This document shows positions 4,289 to 50,495 of a stretch of DNA of 64,000 nt, in pieces; position 1 is the first letter of the stretch; each line of letters starts with the position of its first letter. A program made the position numbers and the translations under genes. The stretch covers positions 372,001-436,000 of the forward strand of contig NC_019780.1 in assembly GCF_000317615.1 (NCBI RefSeq), given 5' to 3'. Source of the DNA: Dactylococcopsis salina PCC 8305. GTDB lineage: Bacteria > Cyanobacteriota > Cyanobacteriia > Cyanobacteriales > Rubidibacteraceae. The notes beneath the pieces are model-generated. The model made no database searches. It was given only the letters and a program-made list of their open reading frames with translations, and was not told the origin of the DNA.

Positions 4289-6034
4289 TCAAAGCAATTT
4301 TATCGGGTAAGGTTCGAGAGTCGCCTCTCTCCCCTCCCCTAAGAACCGCACGTGACAGTTTCCCATCATACGGCTGAGGCTCTTACTTCCAGCCTTCGTC
4401 TTGGATTTTGGACTGTGTACCTGCTTATGACACGCTTTGTGTAAGTGGATTAAATTCTCAGCGTCGTCTGAGCCACCGTCTTTCACAGGTACTATGTGAT
4501 GGGTCTCGATTTCTTCTCCGTTATAGAGGCTTTCACCACAGACAGGACATTTATGTTCTTGTATATTGGCTACTTGTTCGTATTTACTACCTTTCGCCCA
4601 TTTTTGTTTTCCTATCTTGAGGTTACGTTTTTGCCAATAATCTCGGAGTGAGGGGTCATCAGGGCTTGCATTCCCTTTGACTTTCACGTGCCTTACTATG
4701 GGTGTACTACTGATGTTATAAAGAACAAAGAATTTCTCTTTGCCTCCACGACCAGTCCCTTTGCACATAAAAGTCCAGTGATTCCCTTTGTATGAACCGA
4801 AGTATTTATTTGCAACCCACTTTTTGGATTTATTTGGGTGTCGCCGACAACACCATTTCCAGAGGTAGTGCCATACTCGATATGAGATGTAGCTGAAGGT
4901 TCGTTTACTAACCGCCCCTCTGTAGTAGTTAGCAAAACCTCGGAGAAGTGGATTTAGGATTTTAATGACTTGTTCCTGAGTGCAAGATTTCATGTTATCT
5001 AGGGTTTCCCCAATTTTTTTACAGAAGGCGAGAACCTTCTTTTTCTGGGGCTTAATCATTAATTTGCCACCGTAATGGCGTAAGTTGAACCCAAGAAAGT
5101 CAAAACCTTCTTCCATTGAGACGATTCTCGTCTTCTCCGCGCTGATTTCCAAACCCCGTTCTAACATCCATTGCTTTATCTGGTCTAGTATGTGTTCTAG
5201 GCTTTCCTTATCCTTAGAGGTAACAACGAAATCATCCGCGTAACGAATGACTCCGAGCTTTGGATTGACTGACTTAATGAAGTCTTCCAACCCATGTAAT
5301 CCAATGTTAGCTAACAGAGGACTAATCACCCCGCCTTGTGGTGTTCCCATGTCGGTCGGATTCAGTAAACCTATATCGAGATAACCAGCTTTTAACCATC
5401 CTTCAATTAAATCTCCACGTGGAACAGACTCAATTGCTTTCAGGATGGATTCATGGGCAATGTTGTCGAAGAAACCCTTAATATCAGCGTCTAGTACCCA
5501 AGTGTCACGTCCCCCCTGAACTCTCAAGAAACATTGTTCAATGGCATCGTGACAACTTCTACCGCATCTAAATCCATAAGAATTAGGCTCAAATACAGCT
5601 TCCCATTCAGGCTCTAGTATATTTTTAACCATTGCTTGTGCGACTCTGTCCCGTACGGTAGGGATTCCGAGGGGACGTTTCTTCCCGTTAGGTTTGGGTA
5701 AATAAACTCGTCGTGTCGGGTTAGCTTCGGGCATCTCCCAACTATTCACAAGTTTCACTCGCTCGTCTGGGGTGTTGATTACCTCCTTATCTACCCCTGC
5801 GGTACGCTTTCCTAGATTAACTTGAGTGATTTGTCGCACTGATAAAAGCAAGTTGGCTCGGCTTCGTAACAACAGCTTCTGCAACCGACGTAACTGCTTC
5901 CACTTACCAAGACTTCTGGCACGAAAGATTCGCATACGTAAGTTTCTAACAGACTTCTTGACCTTACGCCAGTTAATCTGACCCCAGTCTGAAATCTCTC
6001 CCCTTAGTCCATTTGTCAACGTTAAAGATGACAT
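4289..6034 (-). CDS. ltrA: Group II intron reverse transcriptase/maturase with HNH domain
   Basis: The 581-residue intron-encoded protein carries a reverse transcriptase domain (GKKRPLGIPTVRDRVAQ, GFRCGRSCHDAI, catalytic IRYADDFVVT, GTPQGGVISPLLAN), an X/maturase domain with the PLLRGFANYYRG motif, and a C-terminal HNH endonuclease (CPVCGESLYNGEEIETHHIVPVKDGG, then HLHKACHKQVH). This is the full set for splicing and retrohoming. The open frame runs on through domains V and VI and stops outside the intron at 4289, so the last 20 or so residues are read from catalytic intron RNA; functional protein probably does not need them. No frameshift is visible, so the intron is potentially active. Confidence 0.93.
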   Translation of the reverse strand: MSSLTLTNGLRGEISDWGQINWRKVKKSVRNLRMRIFRARSLGKWKQLRRLQKLLLRSRANLLLSVRQITQVNLGKRTAGVDKEVINTPDERVKLVNSWEMPEANPTRRVYLPKPNGKKRPLGIPTVRDRVAQAMVKNILEPEWEAVFEPNSYGFRCGRSCHDAIEQCFLRVQGGRDTWVLDADIKGFFDNIAHESILKAIESVPRGDLIEGWLKAGYLDIGLLNPTDMGTPQGGVISPLLANIGLHGLEDFIKSVNPKLGVIRYADDFVVTSKDKESLEHILDQIKQWMLERGLEISAEKTRIVSMEEGFDFLGFNLRHYGGKLMIKPQKKKVLAFCKKIGETLDNMKSCTQEQVIKILNPLLRGFANYYRGAVSKRTFSYISYRVWHYLWKWCCRRHPNKSKKWVANKYFGSYKGNHWTFMCKGTGRGGKEKFFVLYNISSTPIVRHVKVKGNASPDDPSLRDYWQKRNLKIGKQKWAKGSKYEQVANIQEHKCPVCGESLYNGEEIETHHIVPVKDGGSDDAENLIHLHKACHKQVHSPKSKTKAGSKSLSRMMGNCHVRFLGEGREATLEPYPIKLL

Positions 6035-9199: not shown

Positions 9200-9352
9200 T
9201 TCTAAAATGTCATCTATTCTTCGTGCTGGAGACTCCCTCTATACCGAAGGTTAGGGGGAGACGGGGCGTATAAACGTCTGGGAAAACCCCAGACGCTACT
9301 CCCCTCTCCGAAAGCACGTCCTCCATTTAATGTGTTTACAAAAGGGAGTGAA

Positions 9353-9549
9353 GGGAGAGAGGTGTAGTCTCCCTTCAGTTCCCAATAATGGGAGACTTCG
9401 CTACACCGAGTTAAGTATGCTTCGCCAAGGTTTCTAAAGTTTGTCAAGCTAACAGCACTTTCTTAACCCGTTTAGGAATGTTTAACTGTTAACCACAGAG
9501 CAGGGAACTAGCACGTATTCCGAGGTGTGATGGCTTTAGAAACGTAGCC
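9353..9549 (-). ncRNA. Orphan IscB-type omegaRNA
   Basis: Read on the minus strand, this stretch aligns along its length with the region at 21548-21750 and in its core with the leader of iscB at 49 kb. Shared blocks include GGCTACGTT at the 5' end, TGCTCTGT before AGTTAAAC, AGTGCT(A/G)TTAG, the GAAGT(A/C)TCCCATTAT hairpin, GGGAACTGAAG and GAGACT(G/A)CACC. The paired arms GTGTAG/CTACAC and TCTCCC/GGGAGA covary with GTGCAG/CTGCAC and ATCCC/GGGAA in the other copy. No nuclease gene is adjacent. On the plus strand the neighbouring bases to 9655 also show a right-end-like hairpin. Confidence 0.65.
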
Positions 9550-9589
9550 CTGAGCGAAGTCGAAGGGCTTAGGCTGGTCAACTTGTGGA

Positions 9590-9655
9590 CTCCAAGAAGC
9601 CCCCGTTATAACCTCCCAAGAGGTTTAACGGTGGGTCGTTGACTGACCTCTACAA
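9590..9655. mobile_element. IS200/IS605-type end hairpin (remnant)
   Basis: GAAGCCCCCGTTA at 9596-9608 and TAACGGTGGGTCG at 9626-9638 flank an inner CCTC/GAGG hairpin. This matches by eye the terminal hairpin seen at the ends of cyanobacterial IS200/IS605 elements carrying tnpB or iscB, and resembles the end at 30.39-30.43 kb. It adjoins the orphan omegaRNA, so together they are probably what is left of one element, with no transposase or nuclease gene. Confidence 0.5.
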
Positions 9656-21335: not shown

Positions 21336-21413
21336 ATTCTTTAATCATTGACGAATATATCAAGCTGTTATATTATTATTGCCAGTGTGTGAGGTGTGAA
21401 GGGAAAGCAGGAG

Positions 21414-21528
21414 AGGAGTCGAGACGAAACAAGGACAGTCGCCGACTCCTTTTCTGTCTCCAAACCTCATTGACTAACCCAATCACTGTACATTAATTGA
21501 CATTCGTGTTGATTGTGTTCGGTTAGTC
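21414..21528. mobile_element. Hairpin region upstream of orphan omegaRNA (possible left end)
   Basis: AGGAGTCG (21414-21421) pairs with CGACTCCT (21443-21450), and GACTAACC (21472-21479) pairs with GGTTAGTC (21521-21528). Such nested palindromes upstream of an omegaRNA resemble the left-end hairpins of IS200/IS605 elements, as seen before the iscB locus at 48.94-49.00 kb. The assignment is structural only; no transposase gene is present. Confidence 0.4.
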
Positions 21529-21547
21529 CAGTCTAAGTCTCTTAGCA

Positions 21548-21750
21548 GGCTACGTTATTTAGGTCAGGACACCTTTGGGTGCAAGCCAGCCTTCTGCTCT
21601 GTCGCTGATAGTTAAACAGGTTCAAGTGATTCAAGGATACCAGTGCTATTAGTGTAAAAAGCCTAGATAACATTGACGAGGCACACTTTACTCCGTGCAG
21701 GGAAGTATCCCATTATGTGGGAACTGAAGAGAGACTGCACCTCTCTCTCT
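21548..21750 (+). ncRNA. Orphan IscB-type omegaRNA
   Basis: About 203 bases homologous to the iscB leader at 49.0 kb and to the minus-strand copy at 9.4 kb. Diagnostic blocks include a GGACACC/GGGTG hairpin followed by GCCAGC, a TGATAGTTAAACAGG stretch, GTGTAAAAAGCCTAGATAAC, GAGGCACACTTTACT and a 3' stem GTGCAG/CTGCAC enclosing two hairpins. The iscB leader has CTGTAAAAAGCC and GAGGCAAACCTTACT at the same places. Nothing resembling iscB or isrB follows; the next gene is a convergent transporter. It is therefore a stand-alone guide-RNA locus or a relic of a deleted element. Confidence 0.75.
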
Positions 21751-21796
21751 TTATCCATAAAAGTCAATTAATGTTCAGCAAATAACCTATTAGAAG

Positions 21797-23158
21797 TTAG
21801 CAGGAAAGATTTGATGGCATTTCTTCTGTCGGGCGATCGACCTCATCTGCCATCGGATCACCTGCGGGTAATAAATTAAGCAAAGGAAGCGGCAACAAAG
21901 TAGAAACATTGGTCAAAATGACTAACAGCCACAGTCGATCGAAGTTGTTTTCTGTTACTCCCAATAACGCCGTTAATAAGCCGCCTAATTCCTGAGATAA
22001 AAACCCCGCTAAATTAAACACTGACATTAATAAAGCGAAAAAAGTCGCCTCAATTCCCGCAGGACAAAGTCTCGCCGCTAAGACTAAAATGGGCATTAAC
22101 GCCACCTCCCCGATCGCGCTTAAAATCAAATTATCCCCCAAACTAAACCAATAATCATCAATTCCTAACGCCCGATTGGCATGAGTCACTAACACTAAAA
22201 CACTCATTCCCAACACAGCAGAAATCACCGTACTCCATCCCAACACTTTCCGAAACGGAACTGTCCTTAAAAAGCGCTGAAATATCCAAACACCGACTAA
22301 AGAAGCAAAGCTACTCACTAACCGCACTCTTCCCAAGAACTCTGGTTCAAAGCCTAATTCGTTCGTCACAAAAAAGAAGATCGCCGCATCGGAACCGGGT
22401 GTCGATTGCCAAACAAAGATAAAAATCGTTGGTAGTAAAATCCGTTTTTGACGCACCGCACCCCAAAGTTGTTGAACTTGTCCTTTCACATTTCCTAATA
22501 ATTGTGATCGATCGCGCTCAGATTTCGGTAATGGCGTTTCGAAAATTAACCAAGCCACCCCAGAAAAGACCAAAGGAAACACCGCGGTTAGTGCAAAAAT
22601 CGTTCTCGGCGTGAATAATTCCAGCAACCAGCCGCTAAAATAAGCGGTAATCAATCCCCCTAGCGCCGTCGCCCCCCAACTCAAAGATTGTAGTGATCCC
22701 GCATTCGCTAGCGACTCTTCTCGCGCCCGTTCCACCACTTGGGAATCGACAATTACATCACTAATGGCGATCGATGCGGAACTCATTAAAATTGCGATCG
22801 TTGCCAACCAAGCACTATCAACAAAGGTCGCCAAAGCCAGCCAAGACGCAGTTCCCAGAAAGCCTGATAGCACGAGATAAGGACGACGACGGTAGCCAAA
22901 AATCGGAAAGCTATCAGAGAAAAACCCAAACAACGGTTTAATCACCCAAGGTAAAATCGCAAACCCCGTTAATACGGAAACTTCTGCAGGAGTTAACCCC
23001 AGATCATCCTTGAGAAAAAAACTAATCGCCAGACGAGCTAAGTTTAGCACGCCTCGCACCACATAGACGCTCACAATCGCCATTAATTCTGGCGTGGGGT
23101 CATTACCTAAAAATAGTTTATCTTTAACAAATGTTCGCCACTGTATCTCAACTGTCAT
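21797..23158 (-). CDS. Folate/biopterin-family MFS transporter
   Basis: A 453-residue membrane protein with about 12 hydrophobic helices. The segments VRGVLNLARLAISFFLKDDLGLTPAEVSVLTGF and PWVIKPLFGFFSDSFPIFGYRRRPYLVLSG, and SISDVIVDSQVVERAR-like ISDVIVDSQVVERAREES, are hallmarks of the BT1/FBT folate-biopterin transporter family found in cyanobacteria and plant plastids. It probably transports folates or pterins across the plasma membrane. There is no operon partner; a GATGGGGGA repeat lies just upstream of the start. Confidence 0.85.
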   Translation of the reverse strand: MTVEIQWRTFVKDKLFLGNDPTPELMAIVSVYVVRGVLNLARLAISFFLKDDLGLTPAEVSVLTGFAILPWVIKPLFGFFSDSFPIFGYRRRPYLVLSGFLGTASWLALATFVDSAWLATIAILMSSASIAISDVIVDSQVVERAREESLANAGSLQSLSWGATALGGLITAYFSGWLLELFTPRTIFALTAVFPLVFSGVAWLIFETPLPKSERDRSQLLGNVKGQVQQLWGAVRQKRILLPTIFIFVWQSTPGSDAAIFFFVTNELGFEPEFLGRVRLVSSFASLVGVWIFQRFLRTVPFRKVLGWSTVISAVLGMSVLVLVTHANRALGIDDYWFSLGDNLILSAIGEVALMPILVLAARLCPAGIEATFFALLMSVFNLAGFLSQELGGLLTALLGVTENNFDRLWLLVILTNVSTLLPLPLLNLLPAGDPMADEVDRPTEEMPSNLSC

Positions 23159-33165: not shown

Positions 33166-33275
33166 GTCGGGTAGGTCAGAGACCTTGATTATAACATCTT
33201 GGTCTCCTTCCCCCCTCAGAATCGTGCGTCGACTTTCACCGCATACGGCTCAAGCAAACCAGACTCGTGTCGCAC
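33166..33275 (-). mobile_element. 110-bp group II intron remnant (5' tip fused to domains V-VI)
   Basis: On the minus strand the sequence starts GTGCGACACGAG, the same first 11 bases as the intron ending at 38070, and passes within about 20 bases into GCTTGAGCCGTATGCGGTGA, a clear domain V (33218-33251), then a domain VI hairpin with GAGACC/GGTCTC arms, ending CTACCCGAC at 33166. Domains I-IV are absent, so it cannot splice itself. It lies upstream of the blaI-like gene in the same direction. Confidence 0.75.
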
Positions 33276-36987: not shown

Positions 36988-38070
36988 GTCGGGTAGGTCG
37001 AAGCCTTATATCTAAACTATCACGTCTCAAACCGCCTTGGGGTTTCCATCCGTTCGACTTCTTGTATTAGCCTTTCACCGAGACAGTTATCGGTTCAGAT
37101 TTTCATCCTGTACGCATAAGAGGACTTTACCAGAAAAGACGTTCGGCTTCTTTCCCCCCTCAGAACCGTACGTGCGACTTTCACCGCATACGGCTCAAGC
37201 AAACCAGACCTTCCCTTACGTCTCTTAGTCACCTGGGGTTAAACCTCCAATTGGATAGGCTCGACTCCTCCCACAGTTACGTTTGCATTACTGCATCTAA
37301 CTTTTCCTGCGGTCTTAAGGCAACGTCACTTTTTGGTACTAAGTAACAGATTCACCCGTGTCCAAGTTAGCTTCCCTTTCAGGTAGGGCAAATTTTGAAC
37401 CCCTATCCGTCGAGTTATACCTCGAAGGGCTTTCCTCTTGCTTTCGTGTTCCTGCTTGAACCAAGTCCAACTATCAGTTATCCGAAATCAGGTTATCAGA
37501 CAAGAAACTGCACGGAATCAGCAGACGGCATTCGCTTTTTGGACTGTCCTATACCCACTAGGGAATTGTGCCTTCCTTACGGTTAGCCTACTGGTAAACC
37601 AGACCCCAATGGGCTTATCACGTTTCACATTTGAGAGATGCGCTCAACTTAGGTGGTGTTCTTTCCGCCGAGGGTGTTATGGTGTGCTAGTCTATCCATG
37701 TAAAGGGGATAAACCTTTGAGACTCCAGCTTTGGGGGAGACTCCCAACCGTTGCCCTTGACAACCCACATACTTGCTCTCGCTTTCGTGGCTAATCAACC
37801 CTGTTTTAATACTCGCTCGGCACTTAACCTTAGCTTACAGGGACTAAGATAACGACGGCTCATAGAACACTTCACTTTCGTTCACCATATTGAGCTTTCC
37901 CTAGCACCTGTTCCCTTTCTGGCGAGTCATACTCAGGGTATGGTTACACTTAACTCCCTGCTTTCCACCCTGCCGTTACCAGCAACGCAGTTGGGAGCGG
38001 GAATACCCATGCACACTTGGGTAGAGTCTTTCTGAGGGACTCACTCTCGAAATGCAACATCGTGTCGCAC
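36988..38070 (-). mobile_element. ORF-less group II intron
   Basis: On the minus strand it starts at 38070 with GTGCGACACGAT and ends CTACCCGAC at 36988. Domain V lies at 37162-37195 (GAGCCGTATGCGGTGAAAGT and the closing arm). The 870 bases upstream resemble domains I-III and contain no long ORF, so the maturase must come from elsewhere. Unlike the remnant at 33.2 kb, the domain VI stem GAAGCC/GGCTTC encloses about 140 bases. The short frames across it are not genes. Confidence 0.8.
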
Positions 38071-48622: not shown

Positions 48623-48943
48623 ATGCAGTCTTCAATACAAGGAAGCGTCAAACCTTTACCATCCTTTGCTTCTAAAGAGTCATACACCAGTAGTGGCGTA
48701 AAGTTGCGATCAGTGACCAAACGATATGATTCATTGGTTGCAGTAGAAAACATTACGTTAGATATTCCTTCAGGATCATACTGTTGCTTACTCGGCCCCA
48801 GTGGCTGTGGTAAAACAACGACACTACGGATGTTAGCGGGACATGAAACAGTAACAGAAGGGAAAATTTATCTTGGCGATCGCGATGTGACGAATCTTCC
48901 CCCAACCCAACGCAACACGGCAATGGTCTTTCAAAATTATGCC
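48623..48943 (+). pseudogene. ABC transporter ATPase, 3' truncated by IscB element
   Basis: The frame encodes the first third of an ABC ATPase of the PotA/UgpC type: LRSVTKRYDSLVAVENITLDIPSGSYCCLLGPSGCGKTTTLRMLAG (Walker A), then RDVTNLPPTQRNTAMVFQNYA (Q-loop). After NYA, where LFPH... is expected, the sequence switches at about 48943 to the IscB element and a stop at 48989-48991. The signature motif, Walker B and the rest of the transporter are missing, and no remainder is found after iscB. It is inactive. Confidence 0.85.
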
Positions 48944-49009
48944 GTTCGTGAAAACCTAGACAAAGTTTCTAAAACTTTGTCAAAGCTATAAGCTACGAAC
49001 GTGCAGATT

Positions 49010-49214
49010 TAGTGGTAAGTCCTGAGTAAAAGGCACACTCCGTTAAATTGGTCATCACACCCAAGTGTGACCGCCAGCACTTGGCACTGTGGGCTATGAA
49101 TTAAACTTAGAGCGAAGGTTGATCAGCGATAGTGTTCTAGCTGTAAAAAGCCTTTTTAACATTATCGAGGCAAACCTTACTGTTTACCAGACGGCTTAAG
49201 AAGCCACTAAAACC
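49010..49214 (+). ncRNA. IscB omegaRNA
   Basis: About 205 non-coding bases directly upstream of iscB. Blocks shared with the two orphan copies are the TGGTCATCACACC hairpin, GCCAGCA, CTGTGGGCTATGA then TTAAAC, GCTGTAAAAAGCCTTTTTAA, TCGAGGCAAACCTTACT, and a final GGCTT/AAGCC hairpin before ATG 49215. IscB omegaRNAs are encoded here in known loci; the guide lies at the 5' end and corresponds to flanking DNA. Confidence 0.82.
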
Positions 49215-50495
49215 ATGTCCAACTATGTTTTTGTTATTGACCAGAAGAAAACACCACTAAAACCAGTTCACCCAAAACGAGCAAGACAATTACTCTCTTC
49301 TGGCAAGGCAGCTGTATTTAGACTTTTTCCATTTACTCTCATTCTTAAAAAAGAAGTGCCTAATCCTGATATCCATCCGCTAACTCTTAAGATTGATCCT
49401 GGTTCTAAAGTAACAGGTTTTGCTTTAGTCACGGATCAAGGAGAAGTAGTTTGGAGAATGCAATTAGAGCATCGTGGAGGTATCATCAAAAAACGTCTAG
49501 AGCAAAGACGAGCATTAAGAAGAAAACGACGTTCAAGACTTCGTTATCGACAGCCTCGGTTTTTGAATCGTAAGCGTCAAGAAGGTTGGCTACCTCCTTC
49601 TCTAATGCACAGAGTTCAGACAACGGAGACTTGGGCGAAAAGACTGATTAAGTTCTGTCCAGTCCAAGAAATCTGGATCGAAAAAGTTAAGTTTGATACT
49701 CAAGCAATGGAAAACCCAGAGATTGATGGTAAAGAGTACCAGCAAGGAACATTACAAGGATATTCGGTTCGAGAGTACCTCTTAGAGAAATGGGATCGTA
49801 AATGCGCCTATTGTAAAAAGGAAAATGTTCCTCTTCAAGTTGAGCATATTCACTCCAAGTCTAAAGGAGGAAGCAATCAAGTCTCTAACCTTTGTCTGGC
49901 TTGTGAGAGGTGTAATCAGAAGAAGGGAGATAAGTCAATTAAAGACTTCTTAAAAAAGAAACCAACTATTCTTGAAAGTGTCCTTAAGCAAGCGAAAAGC
50001 CCTCTAAAAGACGCATCTGCGGTTAATGCGACTCGTAATAAAATTGTCGAGGTGATATCACAACATTCCTCAGTTAAAACAGCAACAGGAGCGCAAACCA
50101 AGATGAATCGAGTTCGTTTGGGATTACCGAAAGAGCATTGTTTAGACGCGGCTTGTGTTGGAGAGGTTGAAACCTTAACCATTCTCTCCCATCAACCACT
50201 AATGGTAACAGCGACTGGGACAGGGGGAAGACAAAAATGCCAAACTAATAAATATGGATATCCCATCAAGCATCGTCCTTTGAGACCAATTCAAGGGTTT
50301 CAAACAGGAGATATTGTACAAGTCGATATTCCCAAAGGAAAGAATCAAGGTCAATGGACAGGACGCTTGTGCCCTTATTCAGATGGGAACTGTGAGATTT
50401 GCCCGAAGGGTCGTAAAAGATTAGGAACTAAACTATCTTATGTTTCAAGAGTGGTTCACCAGAAAGATAGCTATAAATATAGACACCTATCTTAG
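49215..50495 (+). CDS. iscB: IscB RNA-guided endonuclease
   Basis: A 426-residue protein of the Cas9-ancestor family. It has the N-terminal PLMP-type domain (PLKPVHPKRARQLLSSG, residues 14-30), RuvC-I with Asp61 (KIDPGSKVTGFA), an arginine-rich bridge helix (95-112), RuvC-II with Glu156 (EIWIEKVKFD), an HNH domain (CAYC at 197-200, VEHIHSKSKGG with His211, CLACERCNQKK) and RuvC-III with His308 and Asp311 (EHCLDAACVGE). All catalytic residues are present and the frame is intact, so both strands of target DNA could be cut. The start ATG 49215 directly follows the omegaRNA. Confidence 0.95.
   Translation: MSNYVFVIDQKKTPLKPVHPKRARQLLSSGKAAVFRLFPFTLILKKEVPNPDIHPLTLKIDPGSKVTGFALVTDQGEVVWRMQLEHRGGIIKKRLEQRRALRRKRRSRLRYRQPRFLNRKRQEGWLPPSLMHRVQTTETWAKRLIKFCPVQEIWIEKVKFDTQAMENPEIDGKEYQQGTLQGYSVREYLLEKWDRKCAYCKKENVPLQVEHIHSKSKGGSNQVSNLCLACERCNQKKGDKSIKDFLKKKPTILESVLKQAKSPLKDASAVNATRNKIVEVISQHSSVKTATGAQTKMNRVRLGLPKEHCLDAACVGEVETLTILSHQPLMVTATGTGGRQKCQTNKYGYPIKHRPLRPIQGFQTGDIVQVDIPKGKNQGQWTGRLCPYSDGNCEICPKGRKRLGTKLSYVSRVVHQKDSYKYRHLS

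Follow-up and report, generated by a model that had tools for sequence, protein, structure and literature searches.

A stand-alone IscB omegaRNA with a conserved 3' pseudoknot module in a mobile, iscB-less element of Dactylococcopsis salina

We analysed a window of 64,000 nucleotides, positions 372001-436000 of the single-contig genome (3,781,008 bp; G000) of Dactylococcopsis salina PCC 8305. The Rfam model for HEARO RNA, the omegaRNA of IscB (RF02033), matched 21472-21691 on the + strand at 111.3 bits (gathering score 83, E 4.1e-22) and covered all 211 model positions, which excludes a chance similarity to omegaRNA. The 1.5-kb flanks gave no IscB match, and the iscB gene is absent from the element. 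An initial annotation had read this locus (L008, window 21472-21803) as a stand-alone omegaRNA without a nuclease gene, and this reading held; the span it gave, 21548-21750, takes in the 3' two thirds of the omegaRNA and a module downstream of it and misses the 5' part, 21472-21547. The adjoining gene was likewise named correctly as an unrelated convergent transporter (BT1/MFS, 21797-23158, - strand); its stop codon (21797-21799) is supplied by the right end of the element described below. On the 5' side, a consensus scan marked a promoter-like site, TTGACG-17-TATTAT, at 21348-21376 (+). It is followed by a Cyano-1-like sRNA with a terminator-like hairpin at 21383-21458 (+; RF01701, 33.1 bits, under the gathering score of 41), which ends at the start of the guide and has a similar sequence behind aroB in the relative G004. 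This divergent copy lies between aroB and the omegaRNA; the clear Cyano-1 locus, one in each of six genus genomes, lies elsewhere. Because the terminator-like hairpin stands just before the guide, transcription of L008 is doubtful. The presumed guide is the 16 nt of host flank just 5' of the scaffold (21456-21471, +), assigned by position and by the length that the available text of PMC9640706 gives for IscB, namely a 5' guide of roughly 16-17 nt used together with a TAM.

Two further stretches of the window had been named for comparison with this RNA. The first, 9353-9549 on the - strand, lies inside a second iscB-less omegaRNA locus, or solo (HEARO 9410-9643, -, 134.7 bits). The second, 49010-49214, had been taken for an iscB leader, and it does belong to the omegaRNA (48960-49180, +, no module) that precedes the iscB at 49215-50495; this RNA scored 74.6 to 77.2 bits, less than the gathering score. 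The proposed kinship between L008 and this leader 27 kb away proved slight, at only 82.5% identity over 40 nt; the closest iscB-bearing relative lies about 2.1 Mb away and its omegaRNA is 95% identical. The suggestion that L008 gives the IscB of this genome a second guide also needs revision, since the RNA does stand alone but is no single stray: it is one copy of an amplified mobile element.

This element is 332 bp long (21472-21803, +). It is 98% identical to L010 over the whole span, with unrelated flanks, 87% identical to L009, and 88% identical to L006 and L011. All five copies start at the omegaRNA start, have a common right end and measure 330-334 bp. A full-length IscB element at C1:2525897-2524264 (L007) consists of the omegaRNA that is 95% identical to that of L008, then the iscB ORF, then a similar right end; positions 1-220 of the L008 element match it at 95% and positions 283-332 at 82%. 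The right end of L008 (21754-21803, +) corresponds over these 50 bp to 2524264-2524313, directly after the iscB ORF. L008 is thus an iscB-less derivative of an IscB element, with both ends in common with a full-length element and the gene lost. Judged from sequence, it is an element of the L007 kind with a 62-bp module in place of iscB. It resembles IscB (ISC) elements of the IS200/IS605 kind in its left part and its right end, and its sister copy L092 likewise sits beside a short retained motif; it differs in having no protein gene and in measuring 332 bp against about 1630.

The second solo of the window (9210-9643, -) belongs to another group, group B (L001, L002, L004 and L005), the same kind of derivative from the L003 element. 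This copy, L004, comprises an omegaRNA at 9643-9410, a module match at 9417-9340 and a right end ATGA at 9210. It is 100% identical to L005 over 334 bp, which suggests recent movement. Group C solos (L012 in G000 and L094-L101 in G001) are about 370 bp long and have a different tail without the module; by eye, their terminal hairpin loop is present in both orientations among the copies, GGCTAAGACCC and GGGTCTTAGCC. We consider it likely that L008 is a guide-only, non-autonomous IscB satellite, whose RNA works with IscB in trans and serves mainly the retention of the element itself. The sole Y1 transposase gene found in the genome adjoins none of the solo elements, which counts against a satellite. 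Phage or plasmid cargo was rejected as an origin: phage records held no match to the element, and cyanobacterial plasmids held four partial matches at 71-74%.

An empty site documents insertion of the sister copy L092, which in G001, of the same genus, lies 7 nt upstream of the start codon of a gene beginning MAQTIFFNALREATN. The uninterrupted site in G005 reads ...GTGTTAA-AAG-AGTCGAGATGGC, against ...GTGTTAA-element ending in CAG-AGTCGAGATGGC at L092. At the level of aligned sequence, this proves that the sister copy inserted, and CAG/AAG is probably a retained target or TAM-like site. The last bases of L008, also CAG, are probably such a site as well. The same gene start occurs without the element in G000, G002 and G003, where the upstream letters fall outside the alignment; the stretch shown for G004 at the L092-type site is a different sequence. 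At the locus of L008 itself, G004 has aroB and the Cyano-1-like stretch and then no omegaRNA. Only the left side could be aligned there; the match of the right flank was at chance level, equalled by 61 of 500 random flanks. Among the named genomes compared for synteny around the BT1 transporter, the two closest (L040, L041) keep the transporter but not the stretch that lies behind it.

The other HEARO loci of the genome exclude a unique locus. Of the 15 HEARO matches in it, four (L003, L007, L013 and L015) are immediately followed by a gene for IscB or RRXRR and 11 are not; in the relative G001, 11 of 12 loci lacked iscB. Across 60 relatives, at least 303 HEARO matches in at least 32 genomes were counted (summed by hand, and a lower bound with at most 32 candidates scored per genome), together with 171 RRXRR matches in 34 genomes (also a hand sum, with some genes counted twice). 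No HEARO match appeared among the candidates scored in 28 of the 60 relatives. These tallies indicate that solos are common where HEARO occurs. One fragmented genome, 99% complete (G058), had 15 matches to HEARO but just a single, weak one to RRXRR, so solos may possibly outlive IscB.

The covariation check proposed in the initial annotation was run on 12 solo omegaRNAs and came out positive. Of the cells of the 65 Rfam pairs, 78.4% were paired, and 31 pairs had changed on both sides; neither measure was reached by any of 500 shuffles, and slid controls were 28-44% paired. The number of further pair types did not stand above the shuffles (432 of 500 reached it), and helices 1-4 fitted across groups in only 52-63% of cells. 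Covariation across groups is partly inherited from different IscB parents. The solos stayed near their parents in HEARO score: those of group B reached 134.7-141.3 bits against 136 for their parent; those of group A were 94.2-119.9 against 112.7, four of five being slightly lower.

Directly behind the omegaRNA of L008 lies a solo-specific 3' module of 62 nt (21692-21753, +; model match 21684-21762, 79.8 bits, this copy being part of the model), supported by covariation. As read from the sequence, 21695-21700 pairs with 21735-21740 as a pseudoknot, 21708-21722 forms a hairpin, and 21725-21734 pairs with 21744-21753 as a stem. Nine solos of the genome carry the module in this position, that is, nine of the 11 iscB-less loci, including the second solo of the window (9210-9643). 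In these nine, GTGCAG (or GGTGTAG) is followed by a hairpin and by a stem of 8-10 bp whose loop contains CTGCAC (or CTACACC), which gives an H-type pseudoknot. The two parents lack the module; at this place, their omegaRNA is followed by a small hairpin and then the beginning of iscB. The 79-nt stretch of the module, folded with the knot disallowed, reached a z score of -3.1. Against Rfam, 21692-21762 had only a chance-level match on the plus strand (RF04288, 18 bits, gathering score 95.5).

We scored the knot in the tails of 106 of 109 HEARO loci, three having too little sequence. At a score of at least 13.9, it was present in 23 of 77 iscB-less tails and in 0 of 29 iscB-bearing ones. At the looser score of at least 12, the counts were 25 of 77 and 1 of 29, with 26 of 1540 shuffled tails also passing. 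The single iscB-bearing tail, L121 (score 12.0), looks like chance, and L096, one of the 23, passed through an unrelated pairing and is probably chance too. The 54 iscB-less tails (of 77) without a knot at 13.9 count against the satellite interpretation. In 22 of the 23 tails that passed at this score, the first knot strand starts 2-3 nt past the omegaRNA end.

For the defining alignment, we used 28 modules: 21 had passed and seven were included on homology alone, while L096 and L005, a duplicate of L004, were excluded. In this set, 91.6% of cells were paired (slid controls 35-61%), and the cells that had changed on both sides numbered 90, against a shuffle mean of 30. The 13 pairs that had changed on both sides were reached by six of 500 shuffles, and the number of further pair types by 459 of 500. 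We then searched with a covariance model that holds no knot pairs. Over 59 sources, no iscB-bearing locus scored above 16 bits, and all 16 matches above 50 bits lay at iscB-less loci or at one that is unclassified (L076). The model matched at least 18 of 386 cyanobacterial genomes, in at least 11 of 142 genera; this is a lower bound, with at most 11 candidates scored per genome, and G347/L203 is probably a chance match. Of the 34 matches listed, 13 were already known and 21 were new. Within fetched flanks of 1.5 kb, IscB was found at 0 of the 21 (the positive control worked). A HEARO lay directly upstream in 12 of the 20 new matches scanned (L215 not among them), at E up to 0.001; among the remaining eight, an omegaRNA-like end was seen by eye in seven and none at L203. 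Five module copies (L193, L195, L196, L200 and L202) follow a diverged omegaRNA-like RNA that ends in GGCGCAAGCAAACATTAC or similar and lies beyond Rfam HEARO at E 0.001; it is perhaps a further type of solo omegaRNA.

The new matches provided a set that had not been used for the definition. Of the 21, we kept 19 and excluded L203 and L215, which look like chance or a fragment, and we aligned them with a model that knows the stem and not the knot pairs. In these, 93.2% of cells were paired and 14 of 17 pairs had changed on both sides, and 0 of 500 shuffles reached either value; slid controls were 33-55% paired, and further pair types were not outstanding (74 of 500). For the knot helix alone, 94.0% of cells were paired and five of seven pairs had changed on both sides. 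Variants of the knot pair included GTGCAG/CTGCAC, GGAACAG/CTGTTCC, GGAATAG/CTATTCC, GGAATGG/CCATTCC and GGAGTAG/CTACTCC. Since the module was seen only in iscB-less loci, its covariation most simply postdates the loss of iscB, and on this simplest reading it is the main evidence that selection keeps the solo form.

These data bear on the idea that L008 is a decaying remnant, its omegaRNA being a neutral relic left by a chance deletion of iscB. Such relics do exist: L014 (54.1 bits) retains the 5' half of the omegaRNA and the end of iscB, and L174 seemingly, by eye only, retains the 3' end of iscB. The presence at separate sites of copies that are identical or 98% identical, the exact empty site for L092, and a covarying module confined so far to iscB-less loci, a sign that selection has acted since iscB was lost, make this explanation highly unlikely for L008. 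A different question is whether the module acts as single-stranded DNA, as a recognition hairpin for the transposase, and not as RNA. Ends of the IS200/IS605 type work as single-stranded DNA hairpins and would covary too. However, the module is absent from two iscB-bearing parents with the same outer ends, its first strand keeps its distance of 2-3 nt from the omegaRNA end in 22 of the 23 tails, and it is a pseudoknot and not a plain hairpin; we therefore regard a DNA function as unlikely.

The position of the solos relative to host genes was also biased. Among 23 genus solos (the relic L014 included), 15 end at most 60 nt upstream of the start of a co-directional ORF (70 aa or longer). On the left side, a divergent ORF start was found for one of 23, and of random positions in the same loci, 865 of 4600 (19%) passed. 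By group, the co-directional arrangement applied to 4/6 solos in A, 4/5 in B, 5/9 in C and 2/3 in D. In groups B and D, the right-end ATGA itself provides the start codon in four cases (L005, L014, L093 and L072); groups A and C show the same bias without an ATG in the end. The right end of L004 in the window stands 10 nt before the start codon of a HAD gene (9199). Given these controls, many solos must belong to host leaders, and a host promoter could express guide and omegaRNA, with a host gene in the place of iscB. L008 is an exception, as it stands behind the Cyano-1-like sRNA and its end overlaps the stop codon of the convergent transporter.

The same bias would favour host regulation, in which the solo omegaRNA directs an active or inactive IscB to a target in the host or in a phage, or serves in cis as the leader of the next gene. 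The guide of L008 does not point that way. The 19-mer that contains it matched the genome exactly only at its own site, there was no second site with up to two mismatches, and three mismatches gave three sites against one in a reversed-pattern control; viral contigs held 0 exact matches to the 19-mer. A second guide target for L008 was rejected on these grounds, and self-retention fits better than a second host target. Each of the 15 HEARO loci of the genome, moreover, has a different 5' flank, L008 lies outside any gene leader, and a target preference (ends ATGA, CAG and ACCC) may itself explain the positions. Host regulation is therefore quite improbable.

A satellite would need a nuclease supplied from elsewhere, and that the genome holds IscB was borne out, as apparently intact iscB genes are present by eye. 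Candidate partners for the L008 RNA are the iscB of the window, L018 and L019. The first (49215-50495, +) encodes 426 aa with RRXRR and HNH domains (Pfam) and matches the PDB sequences of TbaIscB (1.4e-44) and OgeuIscB (1.1e-30). By eye, its element seems to be inserted into an ABC-transporter ATPase gene (48623-48991), cutting it off. L019 (G000:C1:2524315-2525652), the iscB of the nearest parent, carries an in-frame insert of about 24 aa before RuvC-I, encoded by a palindrome-bearing repeat (by eye), and L017, the iscB of the group B parent, appears to be out of frame at its C-terminus; the cognate IscB is accordingly uncertain. At L018, an omegaRNA-like 3' end was recognised by eye directly downstream of the end of a group II intron, between the intron and the gene (L018:1311-1500; L216, G000:C1:658000-662600). 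Examined as an orphan IscB, L018 showed no 5' part of an omegaRNA and no complete omegaRNA, and two long ORFs precede it; the arrangement suggests that the intron may have split the omegaRNA. The window itself has three matches to group II intron domain V (4302-4378, 33166-33253 and 36988-37198, -), one exactly at the gathering score.

Overall, it is plausible that the L008 omegaRNA guides IscB in trans, and the satellite interpretation can be set out as a sequence of steps. As the sequence shows, an IscB element of the IS200/IS605 (ISC) kind lost iscB and kept the omegaRNA and both ends, with the pseudoknot module behind the omegaRNA. The iscB-less form then multiplied and inserted at new places, its mobility being demonstrated. 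At each insertion, the host DNA on the 5' side would be taken as guide, and an upstream host promoter would yield a transcript of guide, omegaRNA and knot. IscB from other loci could bind the solo RNA in trans and cleave the corresponding site where it is still uninterrupted; the element would thereby be copied back into it and retained, as the biology of TnpB and IscB suggests. The knot would most likely close and protect the 3' end of an RNA that has no iscB mRNA behind it. According to the available text of PMC11870625, TnpB, another transposon nuclease of this kind, helps elements to stay at their donor sites.

The L008 RNA is like HEARO RNA of IscB elements in fold, length, conserved 3' end and the guide 5' of the scaffold, and differs in that the pseudoknot module follows instead of iscB. 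MITE or PATE-like elements are non-autonomous derivatives of IS200/IS605 elements, short and multicopy, with ends common to the gene-bearing parent. The solos are likewise short and multicopy and have the ends of their parent, but they differ in carrying an entire structured guide RNA together with an RNA module of their own, which is missing in the parent. Stand-alone omegaRNAs without an adjacent iscB are said to have been reported from other bacteria by Altae-Tran in 2021. The solos resemble these in lacking the gene; here they form a mobile family with a conserved 3' pseudoknot. Among the titles listed in a literature search, none concerned a solo omegaRNA with such a 3' domain. L008 holds a genuine stand-alone omegaRNA, and the best description of the locus is a probable guide-only satellite element whose conserved RNA module we did not find described; stand-alone omegaRNAs by themselves are reportedly known in outline.

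There is about an even chance that guide-only satellites of IscB transposons form a distinct lineage in cyanobacteria, with members that would have their own conserved pseudoknotted 3' domain, would often sit in host gene leaders for expression from host promoters, would parasitise IscB in trans and would persist by themselves as RNA genes. If so, what spreads can be the guide RNA and not the nuclease, a satellite relying on a borrowed RNA-guided nuclease much as a MITE relies on a borrowed transposase. Separation of guide and effector is the step that CRISPR arrays represent, and a family of trans-acting guides with its own 3' domain would make it testable how guides gained independence from the nuclease gene. 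Being natural and compact, the knot would also be a candidate for the stabilisation of IscB guide RNAs.
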